Under the pieces are notes generated by a model. That model did no database searches. It saw only the letters and a program-made list of their open reading frames with translations, and had not been told where the DNA came from. Made by a program: the position numbers and the translations under genes. Shown here piece after piece: positions 7,804 through 42,112 of a stretch of 64,000 bases of DNA. The stretch is from an uncultured Dehalococcoidia bacterium. GTDB lineage: Bacteria; Chloroflexota; Dehalococcoidia; Lucifugimonadales; UBA1123. Position 1 is the first letter of the stretch. Every line of letters starts with the position of its first letter. Location of the stretch: contig OY282441.1 of assembly GCA_958296105.1 (NCBI GenBank), positions 1,213,800-1,277,799 of the forward strand, given 5' to 3'.

Positions 7804-8853
7804 ATGTCCCATCACAACGCGGATCAGGTACCCCTGCCTCCCATGATCGACCGATACGAGGAGGCTATTCAAGGCGCTCTCAGACAGGGGCTGAACCGAG
7901 ACGGCTCGTTCGTGTACGACATGCTCAGGTACTATATGGGATGGGCGGACGAGACGGGCGCGCCGATACATGCCACCACGGGCAAGGCGGTCAGGCCGAC
8001 CCTCTGCCTGTTCGGGTGCGAGGCGGTTGGGGGCGTGGCGTCTCATGCCATGCCTGCGGCGGTCGCCTTGGAGTTCATTCACAACTTCTCGCTCGTCCAT
8101 GACGACATCCAAGACGAAGACGCGACGCGGCGCGGGCGCAAGACGATCTGGGCTGTCTGGGGCAAGCGCAAGGCGCTGGCGGCGGGCAACGTGCTTCGAG
8201 TGGTAGCGGACGCATCTCTACAGGGGCTGATCGAGGCTGGGGTGGATTCCGAGCGCGCTCTGGCAGGCGTCTCCCTGCTCACCGAAGCGTATCTGGAGAT
8301 GATCGAGGGCCAGTATCTGGACATGTCGTTCGAGGGGCGGCACGACATCGGCATGGACGACTACCGCCGCATGATCTCCCGAAAGACGGGGGCGCTGCTC
8401 CGATGCTCCCTCAACCTGGGGGCCGCGGTCGGCACGGAAGATCCGGCCACGGTCTCGGCGTTCAGGGAGTGCGGGCGCGCGCTTGGCTACGTGTTCCAGA
8501 TAAGGGACGACGTGCTGGGGGTCTGGGGCGAGGAGGAAGTAACCGGCAAGCCTGTGGGCGCGGACATTAGACGGAAGAAGAACTCCTACCCGGTGGTGTG
8601 CGCCATGGAGTCCGCCGAAGACGAAGACGGCGACGCCATCTCCAGAATATACGGCAAGCGGGAGCTGGAAGATCGAGACGTCGATTCGGTCTTGGATATC
8701 ATGGACAGGGCAGGGGTGCGGGAGCGCGCCAGCGTGGAGGCGGGCGAGTGGGCGGATCTCGCAATGCAGGCGCTGACGCCTGTGGAGATGTCCGCTGACG
8801 CAAAGCGGGAGATCGAGGACTTCATCCACTTCCTGATGGTCAGAGACAGGTAG
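7804..8853 (+). CDS. polyprenyl (geranylgeranyl/farnesyl-type) diphosphate synthase
   Basis: Makes linear prenyl diphosphates from IPP and an allylic starter, the precursors for squalene and hopanoids encoded next door. The 349-residue protein has the first Asp-rich motif as DDIQDED and the second as RDDVLGVWG. The second motif lacks the usual last Asp (DDxxD becomes DDxxG), a form I know from actinobacterial-type synthases. KAVRP and the KTGALL loop are present. No strong ribosome site precedes the ATG at 7804; an in-frame ATG at 7843 (MIDRYEEAI) is an alternative. Product chain length cannot be read from sequence. Confidence 0.88.
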   Translation: MSHHNADQVPLPPMIDRYEEAIQGALRQGLNRDGSFVYDMLRYYMGWADETGAPIHATTGKAVRPTLCLFGCEAVGGVASHAMPAAVALEFIHNFSLVHDDIQDEDATRRGRKTIWAVWGKRKALAAGNVLRVVADASLQGLIEAGVDSERALAGVSLLTEAYLEMIEGQYLDMSFEGRHDIGMDDYRRMISRKTGALLRCSLNLGAAVGTEDPATVSAFRECGRALGYVFQIRDDVLGVWGEEEVTGKPVGADIRRKKNSYPVVCAMESAEDEDGDAISRIYGKRELEDRDVDSVLDIMDRAGVRERASVEAGEWADLAMQALTPVEMSADAKREIEDFIHFLMVRDR

Positions 8854-8915
8854 AGAACGTATCGGATCGTGCGCGGGGCGCGGGGGCTTTGTATGACTTA
8901 CGGATGGAGGGTGTA

Positions 8916-9941
8916 ATGGCAAGGCCGCTGGAGCTGGCCGCAAGGCTCGCTTGGTACATAGTCAGCAACAAGCTCAGGGGCAGAAAGCGATTTCCGCTCG
9001 TCACCATGCTGGAGCCGCTGGAGAAGTGCAACCTCGCCTGCGAGGGCTGTGGGCGCATCAGGGAGTACGAGCCTGTTCTGGACCGGATGCTGAGCGTGGA
9101 GGACTGTATAGAGGCGGTCGAAGACTCCGGCGCTCCCATCGTCTCGATAGCGGGCGGGGAGCCGACGCTTCACCCGCAGATCCACGAGATCGTCAACCGA
9201 ATCGTGGAGCGCAAGCGTTTCGTGTACATGTGTACCAACGCGCTGCTCATGGAGCGGGTGATGAAGAAGATACCGCCGACGAAATACTTCTGCTTCGTAG
9301 TCCATCTGGACGGCATGGAGGAGGCGCACGACAGATCGGTGTATCGCAAGGGGGTGTTCCGAATCGCCACCCGCGCGATCCGCGCCGCGCTCGACTCGGG
9401 CCACCGCGTCACCACCAATACCACCGTGTTCAACGGAGTGGACGAGGACGACGTTATCGAGATGTTCAAGATGGTTACGGGCATGGGCGTCGAGGGCGCG
9501 ATGGTCTCGCCCGGCTATCAGTTCGAGATGATTCCGAACCAAGACCTGTTCATCTCGCGGGAGAACGCGCGCAAGGTGTTCGAGAACGTTCTCGACCCCA
9601 AGCACGGAATACGCTTCTACAACAACCCGCTGTACTTGGACTTTCTGCGGGGCGAGCGCGAATACCAGTGCGCGGCGTGGTCGAACCCCACCTACACGGT
9701 GATGGGATGGCGCGAGCCGTGCTACCTGCTCGGAGACCGCCACACGAGCAGGTTCGACGACCTGATGTCGGAAGAGCTGTGGGAGCGCTACGGAGTCGGC
9801 AAAGATCCGCGATGCGCCAACTGCATGATGCACTGCGGGTTCGAGTCCGCCTCGATATTCGGCGCGCTGTCCAGTCCGAAGGACGCCTTCAGGATGGTGA
9901 AGGAAGGGGCGGTGCGGAACTCCGGCGTGGGCGCGGGCTAG
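8916..9941 (+). CDS. hpnH: adenosyl-hopene transferase HpnH (radical SAM)
   Basis: Radical SAM enzyme that adds adenosine to the hopane skeleton, first step of extended hopanoid synthesis. With the start at 8916 (MARPLELAAR, preceded by GGAGG at 6-7 bases) the protein has 341 residues and the cluster motif CxxxCxxC at Cys38, Cys42 and Cys45 (CNLACEGC). Further family blocks include IAGGEPTLHP and FCFVVHLDGMEEAHD. A second cysteine group near the C-terminus (CANCMMHCGFE) is also typical. An open extension to 8889 is less well supported. Confidence 0.93.
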   Translation: MARPLELAARLAWYIVSNKLRGRKRFPLVTMLEPLEKCNLACEGCGRIREYEPVLDRMLSVEDCIEAVEDSGAPIVSIAGGEPTLHPQIHEIVNRIVERKRFVYMCTNALLMERVMKKIPPTKYFCFVVHLDGMEEAHDRSVYRKGVFRIATRAIRAALDSGHRVTTNTTVFNGVDEDDVIEMFKMVTGMGVEGAMVSPGYQFEMIPNQDLFISRENARKVFENVLDPKHGIRFYNNPLYLDFLRGEREYQCAAWSNPTYTVMGWREPCYLLGDRHTSRFDDLMSEELWERYGVGKDPRCANCMMHCGFESASIFGALSSPKDAFRMVKEGAVRNSGVGAG

Positions 9942-9953
9942 GGCAAGGCGAGG

Positions 9954-10739
9954 GTGACGGGCGTGCTGGCTGTGGCGGCTGCGTTCAGGCAGGAGATCGG
10001 CGGATACCTGAAAGACGGGGGCTTCCGAGAAGTCTTGCGCAACGGCAGGCTGCGCTTCCACCTGTCCGACTCTCTGCCCGACGTAGTGGTGGCAGAGGGC
10101 GGACTGGCGCAGGCGGGGGCGAGGGAGTGCGTCAGGCTTGCCGTATCGAGGTTCGGCGCGAACATGATAGTCTCCGCCGGATTCGCGGCGGGCGCGCTGC
10201 CCGGGCAGCGTTCCGGAAGTGTGGTCATATGCGACAGGCTGCTCGCTCTCGACGGCCCGGCGTTCACGTGGAGAGGCGACGAGCGCATGGAAGTCGAGCC
10301 TAGCCGAACTGTGGTGAGGCGGATCGAGTCGCAGACACGGGCAAGAGAGCATGGCTATGCGACGGGCTCCTGCATCACCGTTCCGCAGCTCGTCGCCAGC
10401 TCGTCGATGAAGGCGTGGATCGGCAGGACTTTCGGCGTATCCACGATGGACATGGAGAGCTACTGGGTAGCCGAAGCCGCAAACGGCGCGAGTGTGCCTT
10501 GGGTCGCCGTCAGGGTGGTGCTGGATCCGATGGAGCAGGACGTATCTAGGCTGGTTGGCGAGTCGCTGACGGACGCTCCCGTCAGGATGGCGCTCAGAGC
10601 CGCTCGACACCTTGCCGCCCACCCCGATGACGCGCTCGGCCTTCTGAAGCTGTCCCGGCAGGTCGGAAAGTCCGGCAGATCGCTCACCCGCTTCCTGACG
10701 CAGCTGTCGGCAGCGCAGCTGTCGTTCCAACGTTACTGA
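9954..10739 (+). CDS. hpnG: hopanoid nucleosidase/phosphorylase HpnG
   Basis: Nucleoside phosphorylase-like enzyme that cleaves adenine from adenosylhopane in extended hopanoid synthesis. The 261-residue protein shows the phosphorylase-fold blocks SAGFAAGALPGQRSG and the purine/ribose-site segment STMDMESYWVAEAA. It starts with GTG at 9954, 12 bases after hpnH, and its TGA ends one base before the cyclase ATG, so the three genes form one operon. An alternative GTG nine bases further in cannot be excluded. Confidence 0.85.
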   Translation: MTGVLAVAAAFRQEIGGYLKDGGFREVLRNGRLRFHLSDSLPDVVVAEGGLAQAGARECVRLAVSRFGANMIVSAGFAAGALPGQRSGSVVICDRLLALDGPAFTWRGDERMEVEPSRTVVRRIESQTRAREHGYATGSCITVPQLVASSSMKAWIGRTFGVSTMDMESYWVAEAANGASVPWVAVRVVLDPMEQDVSRLVGESLTDAPVRMALRAARHLAAHPDDALGLLKLSRQVGKSGRSLTRFLTQLSAAQLSFQRY

Positions 10740-10740
10740 T

Positions 10741-12813
10741 ATGCGCGCGCACGTTCGAGCCGAAGATCTGGAACATGCCGTCAGCGGGGCGGTGAGCTAT
10801 CTGATGTCTGTCCAGCATGGGGACGGATTCTGGGTGGGCGAGCTAGAGTCCAACCCCACGATGGAAGCGGAATATCTGATGCTGACCCACTTTCTCGGCG
10901 TGGGCGGCCCCGAAGTCTGGCGCAAGCTGAGAAACCACCTTCTTCACGTTCAGAGGGAGGATGGCACGTGGGGGCAGTTCTACGGCGCGCCCGGCGACCT
11001 CAGCACCTCGACCGAGTGCTACTTCGCGCTCAAGCTCGCGGGCATGGACGCCGCCGATCCGCGCATGTGCGCCGCCAGAGAGTTCATACTGTCCAAAGGC
11101 GGGGTCACCGAGGCGCGGGTGTTCACCAAGATATGGCTGTCGCTGTTCGGGCAGTACGACTGGGGAGGCGTGCCGTCGCTGCCGCCGGAGCTGATGCTGC
11201 TTCCCAAATGGTTCCCGGTGAATCTCTACGAGTTCTCCAGCTGGGCGCGCTCTACGATAGTCCCGCTCCTCATAATCTTCGACAGGAAACCCGTCAGGCC
11301 AGTTGCGCCCCGCGCCGCTATTCCCGAGCTGTACACCCTGCCGCCGAGCGAAACCGACTACTCCATCAAGAGGCCGGACAAGCTCATCGGCTGGGAGTCT
11401 CTGTTCTACGCGGGGGACGTGGTTCTCAGCCAGCTGGAGAGACTCCCATGGAAGCCGACTCGGGCGCAGGCTGTAAAGAGGGTCGAGCAGTGGATAGTCG
11501 ATCATCAGGAGGCGGATGGAAGCTGGGGGGGAATTCAGCCGCCGTGGGTCTACTCCCTGATGGCGCTGAGCGAGCTTGGCTACCCTCTCGACCACCCGGT
11601 GATGAAGCGCGGCATAGAGGGGTTCGAGGCTTTTTCGGTGGAGGAGGACGACAGGCTGCGCGTGCAGGCGTGCGTTTCGCCGGTGTGGGATACCTGCCTC
11701 GCGCTGACGGGGCTGCTCGAAGCGGGGGTGTCTCCGGAAGATCCCGCGCTGCGAAAGGCGGGCGACTGGCTCGTGCGCGGGCAGATACTGACAGGCGGGG
11801 ACTGGCAGGTGAAGGCGTCGGACATTCCGCCCGGAGGCTGGGCGTTCGAGTTCCACAACAACCAGTACCCGGATCTGGATGACACGTCCGAGGTGGTAAT
11901 GGCTCTCGACCGCCTCGCGCTCGAAGACGAGGGCGCGAAGCGCGAGGCGATAGATCGCGCCGTGCGCTGGCTGCTCGGAATGCAAAGCTCCAACGGGGGG
12001 TGGGCGGCGTTCGACAAGAACAACACTCGCGCGCTGCTTGCCAAGATTCCGTTCTCGGACTTCGGCGAGACGATAGACCCGCCCAGTGTGGACGTTACCG
12101 CCCACATCCTGGAGATGCTCGGCCAGCTGGGATACAACGCAGGCAATCCACAGGTGGCAAGGGCGCTGGACTACATATTCGCCGAGCAGGAGGCGGACGG
12201 GCCCTGGTTCGGTCGCTGGGGCGTGAACTACATATACGGCACGGGCGCGGCGCTTCCCGCGCTGAAATCGCTGGGCATCGACATGACGATGAAGCCCGTG
12301 CTGAAGGCGGCGCGCTGGCTGATAGACCATCAGAACGCGGATGGCGGCTGGGGCGAGAGCTGCGCATCTTACGCGGATCCTCGATACCGCGGGCGCGGTC
12401 CCAGCACTCCGTCTCAAACCGCCTGGGCTATTCTGGCGCTTCTTGCGGCGGGCGAGGTGAGCAACCCCGCCACCGCTGGCGGCATTCGGCATCTGGTGGA
12501 CACGCAGCGGCGAGACGGCTCTTGGGACGAGCCGCACTTCACAGGCACGGGCTTTCCGGGGTACGGCGTCGGGCAGCGTCTGGACGCCCATCTAGCGCAG
12601 GACGAGCGCATCTGTCAGGGCGGCGAGCTGCCGGCCGGATTTATGATCAACTATCACATGTACCGCAACTACTGGCCGCTGATGGCTCTGGGGCGATACA
12701 GAAGGCTTCTGCGAGGCGAAGACCAGCCCGCGCCGCAGAGGGCGAATCAGGGCGGCGAGCGCGCGCTACAGAGGCCATCCAATCGTTTGCACCGTTTATT
12801 GAGGATGTGGTAG
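10741..12813 (+). CDS. shc: squalene-hopene cyclase
   Basis: Membrane-associated cyclase that converts squalene to hopene. The catalytic DxDD motif reads DLDD at about residues 378-381. Several QW repeats are visible (QREDGTWGQF, QEADGSWGGI, QSSNGGWAAF, QNADGGWGES) as well as the C-terminal GTGFPGYG and YHMYRNYWPL blocks. At 690 residues it is slightly longer than usual because of an Arg/Gln-rich tail after residue 660. It begins one base after the hpnG stop. Confidence 0.96.
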   Translation: MRAHVRAEDLEHAVSGAVSYLMSVQHGDGFWVGELESNPTMEAEYLMLTHFLGVGGPEVWRKLRNHLLHVQREDGTWGQFYGAPGDLSTSTECYFALKLAGMDAADPRMCAAREFILSKGGVTEARVFTKIWLSLFGQYDWGGVPSLPPELMLLPKWFPVNLYEFSSWARSTIVPLLIIFDRKPVRPVAPRAAIPELYTLPPSETDYSIKRPDKLIGWESLFYAGDVVLSQLERLPWKPTRAQAVKRVEQWIVDHQEADGSWGGIQPPWVYSLMALSELGYPLDHPVMKRGIEGFEAFSVEEDDRLRVQACVSPVWDTCLALTGLLEAGVSPEDPALRKAGDWLVRGQILTGGDWQVKASDIPPGGWAFEFHNNQYPDLDDTSEVVMALDRLALEDEGAKREAIDRAVRWLLGMQSSNGGWAAFDKNNTRALLAKIPFSDFGETIDPPSVDVTAHILEMLGQLGYNAGNPQVARALDYIFAEQEADGPWFGRWGVNYIYGTGAALPALKSLGIDMTMKPVLKAARWLIDHQNADGGWGESCASYADPRYRGRGPSTPSQTAWAILALLAAGEVSNPATAGGIRHLVDTQRRDGSWDEPHFTGTGFPGYGVGQRLDAHLAQDERICQGGELPAGFMINYHMYRNYWPLMALGRYRRLLRGEDQPAPQRANQGGERALQRPSNRLHRLLRMW

Positions 12814-35477: not shown

Positions 35478-35987
35478 ATGACGCTGGGGGACATCCTGAT
35501 TTCGGAGGCGGAGATCGCACAAGTCATTCCGGAGATCGCAGCGGAGATAGTGGAGGACTACGGCGACGCGCGGCTCGTGCTGGTTGGCGTCATGGATGGC
35601 GCGGTCTGCTTTCTGGCGGATCTGATGCGCGCGCTGCCGCGCTCGGTGGAGATGATCACGGTGCGCGCTCAGAGCTACGAGGGCAGAGAAGCGGGGAACG
35701 TGGTAATCGACCTGCCGCCGCGCGAGCGCATCGAGGGCAGGCACGTGCTGATCGTGGAGGACATAGTGGACACCGGGGCGACCGCCGAAATGATGGTGGA
35801 GGAGATGGCGAAGCTCGGCGCGGAGTCTGTGGAGATATGCGCGCTTCTGGACAAGCCTTCGAGACGGACGCGCGAGGTGGACGTAGTCTACGCGGGCTTC
35901 GACGTGCCGGACATGTTCGTGGTGGGCTACGGCCTAGACTACGACGGGCTGTATCGCAACCTGCGGGACGTTAGGGAGCTGGCATAG
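35478..35987 (+). CDS. hpt: hypoxanthine phosphoribosyltransferase
   Basis: Purine salvage enzyme converting hypoxanthine or guanine to the nucleotide. The 169-residue protein carries the PRPP-binding motif VLIVEDIVDTGAT, VGVMDGAVCFLADL and the C-terminal [15 protein letters not shown] at 35478 has AAGGAGGG 5-6 bases upstream; a GTG at 35448 is in frame but lacks a site. The last 38 codons lie inside the tandem duplication and recur at 36571-36684. Confidence 0.93.
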   Translation: MTLGDILISEAEIAQVIPEIAAEIVEDYGDARLVLVGVMDGAVCFLADLMRALPRSVEMITVRAQSYEGREAGNVVIDLPPRERIEGRHVLIVEDIVDTGATAEMMVEEMAKLGAESVEICALLDKPSRRTREVDVVYAGFDVPDMFVVGYGLDYDGLYRNLRDVRELA

Positions 35988-36094
35988 CTGCTGGCAGCGT
36001 CTCCAAGAGCAGGGGCGGGGAAAGAGGATGTCCCAAGAACCGGTACCGGGTCGGCGACCTAGATATGTCAGAGAGGGGCGCGGGGGACTGGGGG

Positions 36095-36369
36095 AAAAGA
36101 GGATGTCCCAAGTGACCTCACCCTCGACCTGCCGCTTCCCGGACTGCCTTCGCCGAAGCTTCAGCCTCCCGTTCCACTGACTCCGACGACCCCGCCGCCC
36201 AGCTTTGCGAATCCACCCGGGCTGCCATCGCAGAAGCTCTGGCCTCCCTGTCGATCCGCTCTGGTGGACTGCCGAACCGCCCTCACCGTCTGCCTCGCGT
36301 ACTGCCTGCGGAGAACCGCCTGCCGCCCGCTCAGCCGAGTCATCAAGCTCAACCACTTGGGACACTCTT
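36095..36369. repeat. possible MITE-like element with 14-16 bp inverted ends
   Basis: AAGAGGATGTCCCAAG at 36097-36112 and CTTGGGACACTCTT at 36356-36369 are near inverted repeats about 275 bases apart. A third copy of the left end lies at 36021-36036. The tandem duplication copies the element to about 36792-37066. Inside are only overlapping, Arg-rich open frames with no recognisable protein. No target-site duplication is obvious. Confidence 0.45.
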
Positions 36370-36492
36370 AATTTATACCAAGACTTGGCATCTGTCAACA
36401 CGTAATTCGGGCAATTTTCGAGAATCGGGAAAATTGGTCGGGCATCTATAAGAACGACGACGAACGACGCTCGGATGCGGGGGCTGTCGCGG

Positions 36493-36684
36493 CTAGGACT
36501 CAGGCTCTGTGATCTCCAGCGTCTGGTCTGCGGGGACGTGGCTCAGGGTTTGGGCGCGTCCGCTGCGCCAGAGGTGGACGTAGTCTACGCGGGCTTCGAC
36601 GTGCCGGACATGTTCATGGTGGGCTACGGCCTAGACTACGACGGGCTGTATCGCAACCTGCGGGACGTTAGGGAGCTGGCATAG
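36493..36684. pseudogene. fused tail relics of the ASPIC gene and hpt at the duplication junction
   Basis: 36493-36570 (minus) repeats the ASPIC C-terminal codons ([15 protein letters not shown]), and 36571-36684 (plus) repeats the hpt C-terminus from [14 protein letters not shown] to the stop. They meet at CGCCA|GAGGTGG. Neither has its own start; an open frame runs through the joint by chance. Confidence 0.85.
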
Positions 36685-37180
36685 CTGCTGGCAGCGTCTC
36701 CAAGAACAGGGGCGGGGAAAGAGGATGTCCCAAGAACCGGTACCGGGTCGGCGACCTAGATATGTCAGAGAGGGGCGCGGGGGACTGGGGGAAAAGAGGA
36801 TGTCCCAAGTGACCTCACCCTCGACCCGCCGCTTCCCGGACTGCCTTCGCCGAAGCTCCAGCCTCCCGTTCCACTGACTCCGACGACCCCGCCGCCCAGC
36901 TTTGCGAATCCGCCCGGGCTGCCATCGCAGAAGCTCTGGCCTCCCTGTCGATCCGCTCTGGTGGACTGCCGAACCGCCCTCACCGTCTGCCTCGCGTACT
37001 GCCTGCGGAGAACCGCCTGCCGCCCGCTCAGCCGAGTCATCAAGCTCAACCACTTGGGACACTCTTAATTTATACCAAGACTTGGCATCTGTCAACACGT
37101 AATTCGGGCAATTTTCGAGAATTGGGAAAATTGGTCGGGCATCTATACGAACGACGACGAACGACGCGCGGCTGTCGCGG

Positions 37181-39316
37181 CTAGGACTCAGGCTCTGTGA
37201 TCTCCAGCGTCTGGTCTGCGGGGACGTGGCTCAGGGTTTGGGCGCGTCCGCTGCGCCACCTGATTCTGATTTCGTCCACGCTCTGGGCGTCGCCAAGTCC
37301 GAATTCCAGCTCGATGCTGTCCATGGAGAGGTAGCTGGATCCGGCGCGAACTTCCTGAACCTGCGTCCTGCCGCCGCTCTCCAGATATACGCGCGCTCCG
37401 ATGGCGTCGGCGCTGCTGCCGGAGCCGTCAATGCCCATTCGTCCCTTCAGGCGGAGCGTCAGCCAGTGGTTGTCCCCTCCACCGTTCATCCACACGAACA
37501 CAGGGCCGAGCGCCGGAACGAACGAGCTAGAAAGGTCGTCCCACACGGGGCCGCTGCTGTTGGTGGCGATGAGGTCCAGGTAGCCGTCTCCGTTCAGGTC
37601 GGCGTGCGCGAGCGCCTTGCCGTTGAGGTGAAACCTGCTGCCGATCCTCTGGCGGTCGGGGTCGAACGCGGGATCGGCAGGGTCGAGGATCGAGTAGTCC
37701 ACGTCGAGGATGTCGAGGAGGCGCGCTCGAACGGTGATGTCCTCGAAGCTCCCCTGCCCGTCGCCTCTGAGCATTCTGCCCGCTGCCGGGTAGCTGGACT
37801 TGCCCGGCGGCCCCTCGGAGCCGAGCCAATATATGTCCTGATCTCCGTCGTTGTCGTAGTCGAAGAAGGTCGTTCCGTATCCGAAGTCGTATGCGCCCAG
37901 CCCGGTGGGGACGTCCCATTCGGGATGAATTCGCCTCCTGTCCAGCGAGCGAGGGGGCATGATGGGGCTGGGAGCTACGGTCGTATCCGAAGCCACGTCT
38001 TCGAACGCTCCGACCACGCCAGCGCCGTCCAGCCGGGCGGGGCCGTCGTTTCTCAACAGATAGTGGAGGCACGTTCCCCAGTCGAAGCGCTCGGTGTACC
38101 TGCAATCGCCGCCCGGCTGCTGCTGCGGCTCGAAGCGGCGCAGGTGGGGGCCGACGTTGGGGATGAACACGTCCAGATCCATGTCGCCATCGTAGTCGCC
38201 CACGGCGAAGCCCATCCAGTTGCCGGACTTGTCTATCCCCATTGCCTCTGCCAGCGGGGTGAATCGGGCGCGGCCGGGGGTGGAGTCGTTCCGAAAGACG
38301 TAGGGGCGGTGTCCATCGTTGGCGACCCACAGGTCGGGGTCGCCGTCGTCGTCGTGATCGAAGAACAAGACGGCGTGGGTGCGCCCGGACGGGTCGCCCG
38401 CCCTGCTGCCGGATGCGTCCAGTACAGTGGGATCGTAGCCTTCGTACTCCGCGCCGGTGTCGGGGTCACGGAACAGGACAGGGTTTCCGTCTGGGTCTCG
38501 CAGGGTTATCTGGCCGCCCTCCACGCCTGCGGCTCTGGAAACTTCATCGAAAGTCATGTCGCCGTTGTTCATGTACAGGCGGTTGTAGTGTCCGAGGTGG
38601 GACGGCTGATCGAATACGAACCAGTCTTCATCGACTGCGTTTCCCACGTAGATATCCAGCCATCCGTCTCCGTCCACGTCGGCGCAGGCGATGCTGGAGG
38701 CGGAGCGGATGTTGACGTTCTCGCCAAAGGCGCGCTCGGTGACGTCCGTGAAGCCGCCGTCTCCGTCGTTCGTGAACAGGTGGTCGCCAATTGCGCGCCT
38801 CAGCTGCTTGGAAGCCGTGTCCGCGCCTGTGGCGGATCGGAAGTCCAGCCCGTCCCCGATGACTCCCCTCGCGCCAACGTACATGTCCTGATAGCCGTCG
38901 TTATCGAGGTCGCAGGCCACGGCTCCGCTGCTGTTGTTATCCACCAGAGCGACGCCGGCTTCGCGGGACACGTTGGCGAACGTGCCGTCGCCTTGGTTGG
39001 CGTAGAGGAAGTTGGCGTTTCCGGCGTTGGACGTGATATACAAGTCGTGATCGCCGTCTCTGTCGTAGTCGAACGCCACTGCGGAGGGTCTGTAGTTGCT
39101 GACCTCGAATCCGTCCAAGAGGGCTTGGGGCGCGACGTTGGTGAACGGGGTGACGGCACTTTCGGGGCTGGCGGTCTCCGAAGCCGTCGTCAGTGGCGAA
39201 GGGGCGAGCGCGGGGGAGTCGGCGGGCGGGATCTCGGGGGCGGCAGGCGTGGGATCCTGGGTGCAGGACAGGACGAGCAGCGCGGCGGCGATGAGCGGCG
39301 CGGCGCGCCGAATCAT
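37181..39316 (-). CDS. ASPIC/UnbV and FG-GAP (VCBS) repeat lipoprotein
   Basis: Exported beta-propeller lipoprotein of about 711 residues. ATG at 39316 gives a signal peptide (MIRRAAPLIAAALLVLSC) with lipobox Cys18; 36 upstream open codons overlap dppC. Seven or more FG-GAP repeats carry Ca2+-type DxDxDG loops (FDYDRDGDHDLYI, DLDNDGYQDMYVGA, DVDGDGWLDIYVGN, DYDNDGDQDIYWLG, DLNGDGYLDLIATN). The C-terminal 100 residues are an ASPIC/UnbV domain ([25 protein letters not shown]). Its start overlaps the dppC stop as ATGA, so it is translated with the transporter. Confidence 0.9.
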   Translation of the reverse strand: MIRRAAPLIAAALLVLSCTQDPTPAAPEIPPADSPALAPSPLTTASETASPESAVTPFTNVAPQALLDGFEVSNYRPSAVAFDYDRDGDHDLYITSNAGNANFLYANQGDGTFANVSREAGVALVDNNSSGAVACDLDNDGYQDMYVGARGVIGDGLDFRSATGADTASKQLRRAIGDHLFTNDGDGGFTDVTERAFGENVNIRSASSIACADVDGDGWLDIYVGNAVDEDWFVFDQPSHLGHYNRLYMNNGDMTFDEVSRAAGVEGGQITLRDPDGNPVLFRDPDTGAEYEGYDPTVLDASGSRAGDPSGRTHAVLFFDHDDDGDPDLWVANDGHRPYVFRNDSTPGRARFTPLAEAMGIDKSGNWMGFAVGDYDGDMDLDVFIPNVGPHLRRFEPQQQPGGDCRYTERFDWGTCLHYLLRNDGPARLDGAGVVGAFEDVASDTTVAPSPIMPPRSLDRRRIHPEWDVPTGLGAYDFGYGTTFFDYDNDGDQDIYWLGSEGPPGKSSYPAAGRMLRGDGQGSFEDITVRARLLDILDVDYSILDPADPAFDPDRQRIGSRFHLNGKALAHADLNGDGYLDLIATNSSGPVWDDLSSSFVPALGPVFVWMNGGGDNHWLTLRLKGRMGIDGSGSSADAIGARVYLESGGRTQVQEVRAGSSYLSMDSIELEFGLGDAQSVDEIRIRWRSGRAQTLSHVPADQTLEITEPES

Positions 39317-40215
39317 ATCTGTCTGAGCCTCGGGGCCAGCTTGTCCCTGAGCCAGTCTCCGAAGAAGTTCATGGAGAACACGATCAGCAGGATGGCGAAT
39401 CCGGGGAAGAAGGATATCCACCATGCGGTGGATATGTACTCGCGCCCGTCAGACACCATGCTTCCCCACGAGGGCTGAGGCGGCGGGATGCCGACGCCGA
39501 GGAAGCTCAGCACCGATTCGGTGAGGATGAGCGATCCGACCTGAAGCGAGGAGAGTACCATGACGGTATTGACCACGCCGGGCAGTATGTGTCTGAGCGC
39601 GATTCGCAGTCCGGACGCGCCGGCGACTCTGGCGAGGGATACGTAGTCGGTGGTTTTCAGCTGAAGGGTTTCGGCGCGCACCTGACGGGCGAACGGCGCC
39701 CACGTGAACAGGGCGAGCAGGATTATGACGAGCTCCAGGCTCGCGCCCCACACGACGGAGGCGACCAGCGCCACGACGATGAAGGGCAGGGCGAACACGA
39801 AGTCCACCAAGCGCATCAGGACTTCATCTACGATTCCGCCCACGTAGCCGGACACGAGGCCGACCACGGTTCCGAGCGCGGCGCCGGCGACGAGAACGGT
39901 TCCCGCCACTATAAGGGACACGCGAGCGCCGAAGATCATGCGGCTCAGTATGCCGCGCCCTATGTGATCCGTTCCCAAGAGGAACTTCGCCGATCCCTCC
40001 TCCGCCCACGCGGGCGGCGTATTGCGGTCGTCCAGATCGCCTCCGAGCGGGTCGTTGGGCGCGACCAGCTCGGCGAAGACGGCTACCACGACCAGCAGCA
40101 TCACGATCGCGACGGGAATGATCGGCCAGCGCCTGAAGGCTAGGTACGCAGTCACGAACCTGTTTTCACGCGGGAGCAGCTCGCGCGCGGCGGTGATGTC
40201 CTCGGCGCTACTCAT
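39313..40215 (-). CDS. dppC: peptide/nickel-type ABC transporter permease DppC
   Basis: A 300-residue inner-membrane permease with an N-terminal helix and five more in the BPD_transp_1 domain. LLGTDHIGRGILSRMIFGAR is the DppC hallmark. The coupling loop for the ATPase is YVSLARVAGASGLRIALRHILPG. It overlaps dppB by 8 bases and the ASPIC lipoprotein gene by four. No ATPase gene (dppD/dppF) is visible nearby. Confidence 0.93.
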   Translation of the reverse strand: MSSAEDITAARELLPRENRFVTAYLAFRRWPIIPVAIVMLLVVVAVFAELVAPNDPLGGDLDDRNTPPAWAEEGSAKFLLGTDHIGRGILSRMIFGARVSLIVAGTVLVAGAALGTVVGLVSGYVGGIVDEVLMRLVDFVFALPFIVVALVASVVWGASLELVIILLALFTWAPFARQVRAETLQLKTTDYVSLARVAGASGLRIALRHILPGVVNTVMVLSSLQVGSLILTESVLSFLGVGIPPPQPSWGSMVSDGREYISTAWWISFFPGFAILLIVFSMNFFGDWLRDKLAPRLRQI

Positions 40216-41131
40216 AGCGAATCCGGGGATCGAGGACGCCGTACACCAGATCTGCGAACAGGCTTGCGAACAGGAACACGATTCCGAAGACCAGCGCCAG
40301 CCCGGTCACCAGCGGGAAGTCTGTGTTGAGCGCGGCGTTGACTGCCAGCCTGCCGATGCCGGGCCATGCGAAGACGGTCTCCACCACGACGGTTCCGGTC
40401 ATGAAGCCAGCCAGCAGGATCATGGCGTAGGTGAGCGGGGCTATCAATGCGTTCCTGAAGGCGTGCTTCCAGATTATCTTGGTGGATCCGACGCCCTTCG
40501 CTCTGGCGAGCTTGACGTACTCGCTGTCCAGCACTTCCAGCATGGACGAGCGGGTGAGGCGCAGAAGGCCGGCGGCGGGCAGCCAGCCGAGTGTGGCAAC
40601 GGGCAGGACGAAGTGTGTCCAGTCTCCGCGCCGCGAGGTGGGCAGCCAGCCGAGCTGCACGCTGAACACCAGCACCAGCACTATGGCTATCCAGAACGGC
40701 GGGACGGACTGCCCAAGCAGCGCGAAGCTGCGCCCCAGATAGTCCCACGCCGTGCTGCGCTTGACTGCGGACAGGACGCCAAGCGGCATCCCCAAGGCTA
40801 TGGCGAACGCGAACGATATGCCGGACAGCTGAAGCGTTGCGGGCAGGGATTCCATGATCATTTGCAGTGAGTTTCGCTGGTAGTAGACGGAGTTTCCGAA
40901 GTCTCCGCGCACCGCCTTGCCAACCCATATGGCGTACTGGACGAGCAGGGGCTTATCCAGCCCCATCGCCTTGCCCTGCGCCTCTCACGCCTCTGAAGTA
41001 GTCCTCGTGTACTGCGTCATGTACAGGTATCGGGGGTCTCCGGTGGCGTGCGACAGCGAGAACACCAGAATGGTGAGGCCAAACAGGACTACCACGATAG
41101 CCGCGAGTTTTCGGAGCAGGAGCTTTCGCAT
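40208..41131 (-). pseudogene. dppB: ABC transporter permease DppB interrupted by an in-frame TGA
   Basis: The ATG at 41131 opens a DppB-like N-terminus (MRKLLLRKLAAIVVVLFGL, then FSLSHATGDPRYLY). After 48 codons the frame hits TGA at 40985-40987 and then continues without a shift into the rest of DppB (EAQGKAMGLDKPLLVQYA and onward), including the ATPase-coupling loop YVKLARAKGVGSTKIIWKHA. The 252 codons after ATG 40964-40966 are intact, but the first helix and half the external loop would be lost. A point mutation from CGA is the simplest cause. A sequencing error is possible. Other genes here use TGA as a stop, so recoding is unlikely. Confidence 0.85.
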
Positions 41132-41141
41132 GTGTCGGCCG

Positions 41142-41657
41142 TCAGCCTTTCGGTCGGTCGGGGTTTTCCAAGTTCTCGACTGGAAGGCCGATTGCGTCGT
41201 CTGCGCATGAAAGCGCCTGCCTCAGACGCTCGATTGGCAGTCTTTCCGTCCCGCCGCTTTCCCACATCTCTTCCGAGCAGATCGCCACGTGTTCGACGTA
41301 TGAGCCGCTCTCGTCCAATCCGCGAACGAATGCCCGCGTACATTCGTCGGAGATTTCGGAGTAGGGCAAGCCAAGAACGCCCTCTACCATGGCGCTGTCG
41401 TGGAAAAACGCCTTGTCGTTAGCCACGCCTGCCACCTGTCCGATCTCTTCGAGGGTGAGAATCCCAAGCGTTATGTCGATGCAGAGGGGCTGCATCTCCG
41501 ACAGCCTTATTTCCAGCAGGGGGTCGTCTGGATCCTCGGTGGGCTCTTCTTCGGTGAAGAAAGCGAGTGACAGGGCAAGCGCGGCCGCCGCTATCAAAGC
41601 TATCCCAGCCGCGAGTCCCAAGACTATCCACAGAGTCTTTGTTCTTGCCATCGTCAC
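41142..41657 (-). CDS. membrane-anchored protein of unknown function
   Basis: A 171-residue protein with one N-terminal membrane helix (LWIVLGLAAGIALIAAAAL) and a soluble, acidic domain with four cysteines (PLCIDITL, DECTRAF, AICSEEMW, LSCADDA), consistent with disulfides outside the cell. GTG at 41657 has GGAAGG six bases upstream; ATG at 41651 is also possible. It sits just upstream of dppB on the same strand, where a substrate-binding protein might be expected, but it is too small and unlike one. Confidence 0.7.
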   Translation of the reverse strand: MTMARTKTLWIVLGLAAGIALIAAAALALSLAFFTEEEPTEDPDDPLLEIRLSEMQPLCIDITLGILTLEEIGQVAGVANDKAFFHDSAMVEGVLGLPYSEISDECTRAFVRGLDESGSYVEHVAICSEEMWESGGTERLPIERLRQALSCADDAIGLPVENLENPDRPKG

Positions 41658-41679
41658 ACTCGGCCTTCCGCGTGGCCAG

Positions 41680-41719
41680 GGGCGCCGGACGGGGGAGAAC
41701 GTTCCTCCGCCCGGCGCCC
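41680..41719 (-). terminator. strong intercistronic hairpin after the binding-protein relic
   Basis: GGGCGCCGG (41680-41688) pairs with CCGGCGCCC (41711-41719), and partial pairing continues inward (CGGGGGAG with CTCCGC). It lies just 3' of the relic's stop (41733) on the minus strand. There is no U-tract, so it may act as an mRNA-stabilising or attenuating stem rather than a classic terminator. Confidence 0.5.
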
Positions 41720-41732
41720 GAACGCCGGAGGG

Positions 41733-41890
41733 CTACTTGTCTATGACGACCGTAGCCGGGTTGTTGAAGCTGCTTCCCCAGTAGGGATGCCACTCCGCGA
41801 TCGTGGGCAGTTTGACCCAGAAGCTCTTGACCGTCGCCACTGCCGCGTTGATGTGCCAGTAGGACATGTAGCTCTGGAAATGGATTCGGG
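41733..41890 (-). pseudogene. 3' fragment of a peptide ABC transporter substrate-binding protein
   Basis: About 50 codons ending in TAG remain: HFQSYMSYWHINAAVATV, then FWVKLPTIAEWHPYWGSS and FNNPATVVIDK. The pattern fits the extreme C-terminus of a DppA-type binding protein. Upstream of 41890 similarity stops and no long frame continues, so at least 450 codons are missing. Together with the dppB stop this indicates a transporter operon in decay. Confidence 0.65.
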
Positions 41891-42004
41891 GCGATCAGAC
41901 GAAGTGCGAGGCACAGAACGCCTGCGGCACATACGCGCCGATCCATCCAAAGCCAGTTTATACTTCTTATGAGTGGTGTCAAGTGAGGAGCGGGAGGGGA
42001 TAGG

Positions 42005-42112
42005 CTGGCGCGATTCATGTCTCTGCCATTCAAGGGCAGCGAGAGAAGAGATATGGGGTCTGCGAAATCGCGCTGCGACTGGCGCGATTCACGTCTCTAC
42101 GACCAAGGGCAG
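42005..42112. repeat. two imperfect 34-35 bp direct repeats between the transporter relic and pyrG
   Basis: CTGGCGCGATTCATGTCTCT (42005-42024) and CTGGCGCGATTCACGTCTCT (42079-42098) are each followed by a variant of CCAAGGGCAG. They are 74 bases apart in the roughly 280-base gap between 41890 and 42171. Otherwise I see no gene in this gap. Confidence 0.6.

Follow-up and report, generated by a model that had tools for sequence, protein, structure and literature searches.

Is the peptide-type transporter operon at 37181–41888 a decaying importer, and if so, why do one of its permease genes and the lipoprotein gene behind it stand undamaged? The operon lies in a window of 64,000 nucleotides (bases 1213800–1277799) of the single-contig, 3.18 Mb genome (G000, hereafter the own genome) of an uncultured Dehalococcoidia bacterium. 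An initial annotation of the window had described a transporter operon in decay, with an ASPIC lipoprotein still coupled to it that might have taken over a role free of transport. Comparison with the related genome G001, which has the intact order SBP-dppB-dppC-ASPIC (SBP, substrate-binding protein), bears out both the decay and the coupling; the proposed new role fares poorly, as the lesions are probably young and the family is found with permeases. We consider it probable that a SAR202-like Dehalococcoidia genome has here recently inactivated a redundant, SBP-dependent importer of the dipeptide/nickel type, a loss that is ordinary turnover among many dpp paralogues. That dppC and ASPIC are still intact is most simply put down to the youth of the damage, rather than to any demonstrated new role.

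Operon anatomy and an intact relative

The operon lies downstream of pyrG and is read on the minus strand, in the order SBP remnant, 171-codon open reading frame (ORF), broken dppB, dppC and ASPIC. Both lesions described initially, the TGA in dppB and the truncated SBP, are present, as are the open frames of dppC and ASPIC and their ATGA overlap; the 171-codon ORF between the SBP remnant and dppB had been overlooked. The features are as follows (identities to G001, a genome of the same genus as the window genome).

37181–39316, minus strand: ASPIC/UnbV (CRTAC1-like) beta-propeller lipoprotein gene, intact, 711 amino acids (Pfam, structure model)
39313–39316, minus strand: ATGA shared by the dppC stop and the ASPIC start (sequence)
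39313–40215, minus strand: dppC-type permease gene, intact, 300 amino acids (PF00528; G001 orthologue 84% identical)
40208–41131, minus strand: dppB-type permease gene, stopped at codon 49 (ATG at 41131)
40208–40966, minus strand: ORF from a possible restart ATG, 252 amino acids (PF00528 at 149.2 bits, hydropathy)
40985–40987, minus strand: in-frame TGA in dppB (Trp in the 11 closest aligned relatives)
41142–41657, minus strand: 171-codon ORF for which no relatives were found, between the SBP remnant and dppB
41733–41888, minus strand: SBP_bac_5 gene remnant, last 51 codons and stop (90% identical to the G001 SBP)
41955–41982, minus strand: sigma-70-like promoter candidate, TTGACA-16-TAAACT, upstream of the SBP remnant (consensus match only)

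The complete set is found in G001 on one strand (locus L064) as SBP (634 amino acids)-dppB-dppC-ASPIC-gamma-glutamyltransferase, with Trp at the TGA site of dppB and an ASPIC ORF that opens ∼30 bp after dppC. Amino-acid identities between the window and G001 are 89% for dppB, 84% for dppC and 73% for ASPIC. A genome of the same order used as outgroup, G028, has SBP-dppB-dppC at 75% dppB identity and no ASPIC gene beside it. The neighbours of the operon are pyrG and hpt in the own genome and a phosphofructokinase gene in G001, and no dpp genes were found around pyrG and the phosphofructokinase gene in genomes G002 and G003, where the G002 stretch ends near the gene (the G001 contig itself ends in pyrG).

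The SBP remnant spans at most 51 codons, corresponds to residues 584–634 of the G001 protein and contains no further stop, with DNA homology to G001 beginning at 41885; the initial annotation had given about 50 codons and a span of 41733–41890. A search of the own genome for a relocated SBP body found no close copy of the missing 583 residues (best paralogue 34% identical). A comparison of the 285 bp upstream of the remnant with G001 shows no homology (local score 23; maximum 37 after shuffling), so a retained SBP promoter or 5′ end there was rejected, and no homology was detected between the SBP-dppB intergenic stretches of the window and G001 (score 20, shuffled 31). An interspersed repeat at the breakpoint was also considered and rejected, as the repeated 18-mer (at 42007 and 42081) has no further occurrence in the genome. 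The promoter candidate is a single occurrence against 0.2 expected. The 171-codon ORF, read by eye, has one hydrophobic N-terminal segment followed by an acidic part; its coding signal is positive only in its own frame and weaker than those of dppC, ASPIC and pyrG. It has no match in 29 other relatives or 293 other genomes of the class (overlapping sets), nor in Pfam or NCBIfam, and is possibly a young or imported gene.

The interrupted dppB

The dppB frame runs from the ATG at 41131 to a stop ending at 40208, and the TGA at 40985–40987, where the initial annotation had placed it, is codon 49. Of the 61 DppB homologues aligned, 15 have Trp at this site, among them the 11 that are nearest to the window; the intact codon is therefore not expected to be CGA (Arg), as had been supposed. 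Genome-wide recoding of TGA to Trp was rejected, since none of the 18 listed dppB rows and 31 SBP rows of the own genome shows a flagged internal stop under the standard code, and TGA itself serves as the dppC stop.

A possible restart ATG lies 18 nt past the TGA, its Met being residue 56 of DppB. The resulting frame keeps the whole BPD_transp_1 domain and loses the first hydrophobic segment, so that a shortened DppB may be made. The restart ORF and dppC (110.3 bits) both score far above the PF00528 (BPD_transp_1) cutoff of 26.4, while OppC_N in dppC reaches 19.9 bits against a cutoff of 23.9. A DUF3482 match on dppC (E 0.032) was dismissed as far under its Pfam cutoff.

Redundancy of transport genes and age of the lesions

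Paralogous dpp sets, the presence of which the initial annotation had raised, abound in the own genome: SBP_bac_5 is matched 31 times (27 places when second pieces are set aside), the dppB query 29 times and the oligo_HPY ATPase 19 times. Eighteen of the dppB matches are listed, namely the window and 17 others, all 17 being open frames of at least 309 amino acids. A passage in a study of SAR202 genomes likewise places the DppA/B/C-type COGs (COG0747, COG0601, COG1173) among the abundant families of that lineage (PMC6946804). Every one of the 17 other listed places has an SBP within 2.3 kb, whereas the nearest other SBP to the window operon is 113 kb off; the missing SBP is therefore a sign of decay and not of chance. 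The same does not hold for the ATPases. None is near the operon, as had been stated initially (the closest with an oligo_HPY domain lies at a distance of 173 kb), but this is no sign of decay because 15 of the 17 other listed places also have none within 10 kb (2/17 do). In the own genome a second dppC copy (L066, 7224–8173, minus strand) is frameshifted downstream of an intact SBP-dppB-dppC set, and in G001 a dppB is in two pieces (C48); unless these are sequence errors, they suggest such loss elsewhere too.

The age of the lesions was judged from amino-acid change, the ratio of nonsynonymous to synonymous rates (dN/dS) not being used because synonymous sites are saturated: fourfold-degenerate sites of G000 and G001 are identical at 34% in dppB, 28% in dppC and 35% in ASPIC, from which the split between the two genomes is old. 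With G028 as outgroup, unique amino-acid changes in the window and G001 lineages number 10 and 12 in dppB and 16 and 13 in dppC, few enough that the test has low power. As to selection on dppC and ASPIC, raised in the initial annotation, the dppC changes are balanced, and the ASPIC comparison spans two genomes with saturated fourfold sites. Because the lineage changes are balanced and the SBP remnant is 90% identical and undamaged further, the lesions are probably young, and decay would have begun late on the window branch. With young lesions, intact dppC and ASPIC genes are expected without any new function.

The ASPIC protein and its association with permeases

The window ASPIC protein is a CRTAC1 relative with a predicted CRTAC1 fold. 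In Pfam it scores 128.9 bits for FG-GAP_3 (cutoff 26.9) and 76.8 bits for UnbV_ASPIC (PF07593; cutoff 23.4), with UnbV_ASPIC following the FG-GAP repeats. The predicted model (pLDDT, predicted local distance difference test, 77; pTM, predicted template modelling score, 0.82) has murine CRTAC1 (9etn) as its top Foldseek match (E 4e-29), and 466 residues align to 9etn with VIA Z 36.1 and a root-mean-square deviation of 2.6. It contains LLVLSC, read by eye, which we take to be a lipobox-like motif. A TcdB_toxin_midN match (E 0.11) lies far under the Pfam cutoff and was dismissed.

Named ASPIC loci were taken from one scan with the best 80 matches listed. Among these, the 20 named loci with at least 47% identity are all labelled Chloroflexi, Dehalococcoidia or SAR202. 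The comparison within Dehalococcoidia covers 36 further distinct copies, 25 of them unfused and 11 with an extra N-terminal region (“fused”, at least 1040 amino acids). The window is not counted in the 25, nor is L098, which duplicates L076; counted are L104, truncated by a contig start and perhaps fused, the frameshifted L081 near the end of a contig, L091 on a short contig that shows only ATPases, and L096, which has a single and weaker dppB. Nineteen of the 25 unfused copies adjoin dppB or dppC within 4.6 kb, against 1 of the 11 fused (Fisher test, p 2.7e-4, phylogeny ignored). In nine of the 11 long copies (L071, L072, L074, L079, L097 and L099–L102) the N-terminal region contains an ArsP_1 permease domain by Pfam; it was not found in the two L075 proteins.

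The layouts vary: SBP-B-C-ASPIC (L064, L071, L095), SBP-B-C-D-F-ASPIC (L067, L068), B-C-SBP-ASPIC (L080), B-C-ASPIC without an SBP match (L076, L103), and ASPIC facing an SBP-B-C set (L069, L077, L078, L086). On the tree the “fused” label needs 6 changes and the “linked” label 8, so the arrangement changed several times. Across nine genomes, 11 of 19 ASPIC genes lie within 5 kb of dppB or dppC (10 of 18 without the window), compared with 1.58 expected (P 3e-8); this count was coded by hand with genes treated as independent and L081 counted through dppC, and the expectation uses dppB match counts that may include dppC genes, which would make it too high. ASPIC and dppC distances correlate (r 0.76; Mantel permutation p 2e-4; 19 pairs, L081 and L096 left out), both distance sets sharing the species tree. 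By contrast, none of 60 distant CRTAC1 homologues listed by the same scan lies near dppB or dppC (6 of the 60 have an ATPase match), although these controls belong largely to other phyla, in which dpp densities differ, and several of their contigs are short.

Taken from gene order and fusion, the CRTAC1-like family thus looks like a permease partner. It is quite possible, and we hold this tentatively, that the CRTAC1-like beta-propeller lipoprotein of SAR202-type Dehalococcoidia regularly partners permeases as an unnamed accessory receptor, encoded beside Dpp-type permeases in several layouts or fused to ArsP_1 and co-diverging with the permease; the window would hold one such set that is losing its importer.

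Several further observations concern the surroundings of these genes. A gamma-glutamyltransferase gene directly follows ASPIC in G001 (L064, 5363–7003, minus strand; Pfam), and a profile match to another lies ∼1 kb downstream of ASPIC in L088 (8240–9982, plus strand), beyond an opposite-strand gene; these hint at gamma-glutamyl peptides as possible substrates. At L081 in G001 (7962–11514), near a contig end, ASPIC and dppC both appear frameshifted, which may be joint decay or poor sequence. Beside four distant Bacteroidota CRTAC1 genes, no SusC/SusD-like neighbours were recognised by eye. In one Maribacter genome (L157, 4213–11781) and one Lutimonas genome (L159, 4199–11862) the CRTAC1-like gene stands in the same four-gene row, encoding a protein of ∼1200 residues, the CRTAC1-like protein, and proteins of ∼443 and ∼318 residues, with a CxxxCxxC run visible in L159. 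Within the window, a tandem duplication at 35869–37258 with a step of 688–697 bp (300 nt at 98% and 89 nt at 100% identity) holds the 3′ end of a hypoxanthine phosphoribosyltransferase gene (by eye), an intergenic stretch and the 3′ end of ASPIC, and makes a chimeric ORF at 36475–36684.

Proposed history and alternative explanations

The ancestral operon would have comprised SBP, dppB, dppC and the ASPIC lipoprotein gene, with the ATPases encoded elsewhere. In the intact form the SBP would pass its ligand to a DppB-DppC channel powered by shared DppD/F-type ATPases, and outside the membrane the CRTAC1-like lipoprotein may assist them, by binding or as a scaffold; gene neighbourhood and fusion point to such an extracytoplasmic role. 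In the window lineage the operon is sited differently from its sister, and it would have lost the SBP except for the last 51 codons, acquired an extra ORF before dppB and a stop within dppB, events whose order we infer. DppB would be absent there, or present as a 252-residue restart product without the first membrane segment. Import by the window set is most likely lost because no SBP lies beside the permease and DppB is absent or shortened.

A number of points weigh against this account. Neither dppB past the TGA nor dppC shows other damage, which makes a working shortened DppB conceivable; the restart ATG lies close behind the stop; the TGA could be a consensus error; the sharing of ATPases is suggested by gene counts; and the small number of lineage changes, together with the two-genome comparison of ASPIC, blunts the dating of the lesions. 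On the family side, dppB and dppC are both missing from the flanking stretch of six unfused copies out of 25, and three of these six (L070, L073, L085), with flanks of at least 5 kb, have no dpp gene of any kind.

Three other readings were weighed. The permease might still work, with translation restarting at ATG 40966, the first membrane segment of DppB missing and ligand supplied by another SBP of the genome. The 18-nt distance to the restart, the whole BPD_transp_1 domain in the 252-residue ORF, amino-acid change that is not accelerated and 27 other SBP places in the genome would all fit, and PMC4206461 provides a precedent in Pseudomonas aeruginosa, where several SBPs serve one DppBCDF. 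We nevertheless judge it unlikely, given that the 17 other listed dppB places combine frames of at least 309 amino acids with an SBP close by, and that the first hydrophobic segment lies in the lost part. Slightly less credible still is that the TGA is a consensus error, only the SBP loss being real and the whole permease using another SBP: the TGA is one base from the Trp codon of close relatives and everything downstream of it is intact, yet neither the 18 listed dppB rows (that of the window covering only what follows the TGA) nor the 31 SBP rows have a flagged internal stop, and the sole dppB with a stop stands in the set that has a broken SBP too. The initial proposal, that ASPIC took over a transport-free role with dppC as a passenger, could draw on the survival of these two genes beside a broken SBP and dppB and on the three unfused copies without any dpp gene. 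We regard it as very improbable, since with lesions that seem so recent the survival of the two genes says little, the linkage of the family to permeases across the class argues against such a role, and L081 may show ASPIC decaying together with its permease. Recent inactivation of a redundant importer is the explanation that we favour.

Relation to known systems and significance

The permease pair of the window and the SBP-B-C order of its intact relative are those of a Dpp/Opp/Nik-type ATP-binding cassette (ABC) importer (SBP_bac_5, two BPD_transp_1 and two oligo_HPY ATPases), and the window permeases resemble the NikC, Opp2C and Opp2B models. The window operon differs in having no ATPases, a nearly vanished SBP, an interrupted dppB and an extra lipoprotein gene. 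No NCBIfam equivalog cutoff is reached by the window permeases, and the substrate therefore cannot be named. With CRTAC1 and the ASPIC-UnbV FG-GAP proteins the window protein shares FG-GAP repeats, the UnbV_ASPIC domain and the predicted fold (9etn); unlike them, it is a bacterial lipoprotein encoded with an ABC permease, and some of its relatives carry an N-terminal ArsP_1 domain. The expansion of Dpp-type paralogues in SAR202 (PMC6946804) concerns the same lineage, with many dpp-like sets per genome; the passage on it mentions neither an ASPIC partner nor decay, as seen in the window set, and a word search of the main text returned no FG-GAP, ASPIC or lipoprotein. In the literature searched (titles and abstract openings, covering few subscription papers), no link of CRTAC1 to ABC or ArsP_1 permeases was found, nor in those titles and abstract openings any transport function for bacterial CRTAC1/ASPIC proteins.

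Linkage and fusion to permeases in a widespread ocean clade suggest a testable role for CRTAC1/ASPIC proteins, that of helping to capture or route solutes for uptake, and the window would provide a natural case of such a lipoprotein that has lost its importer.

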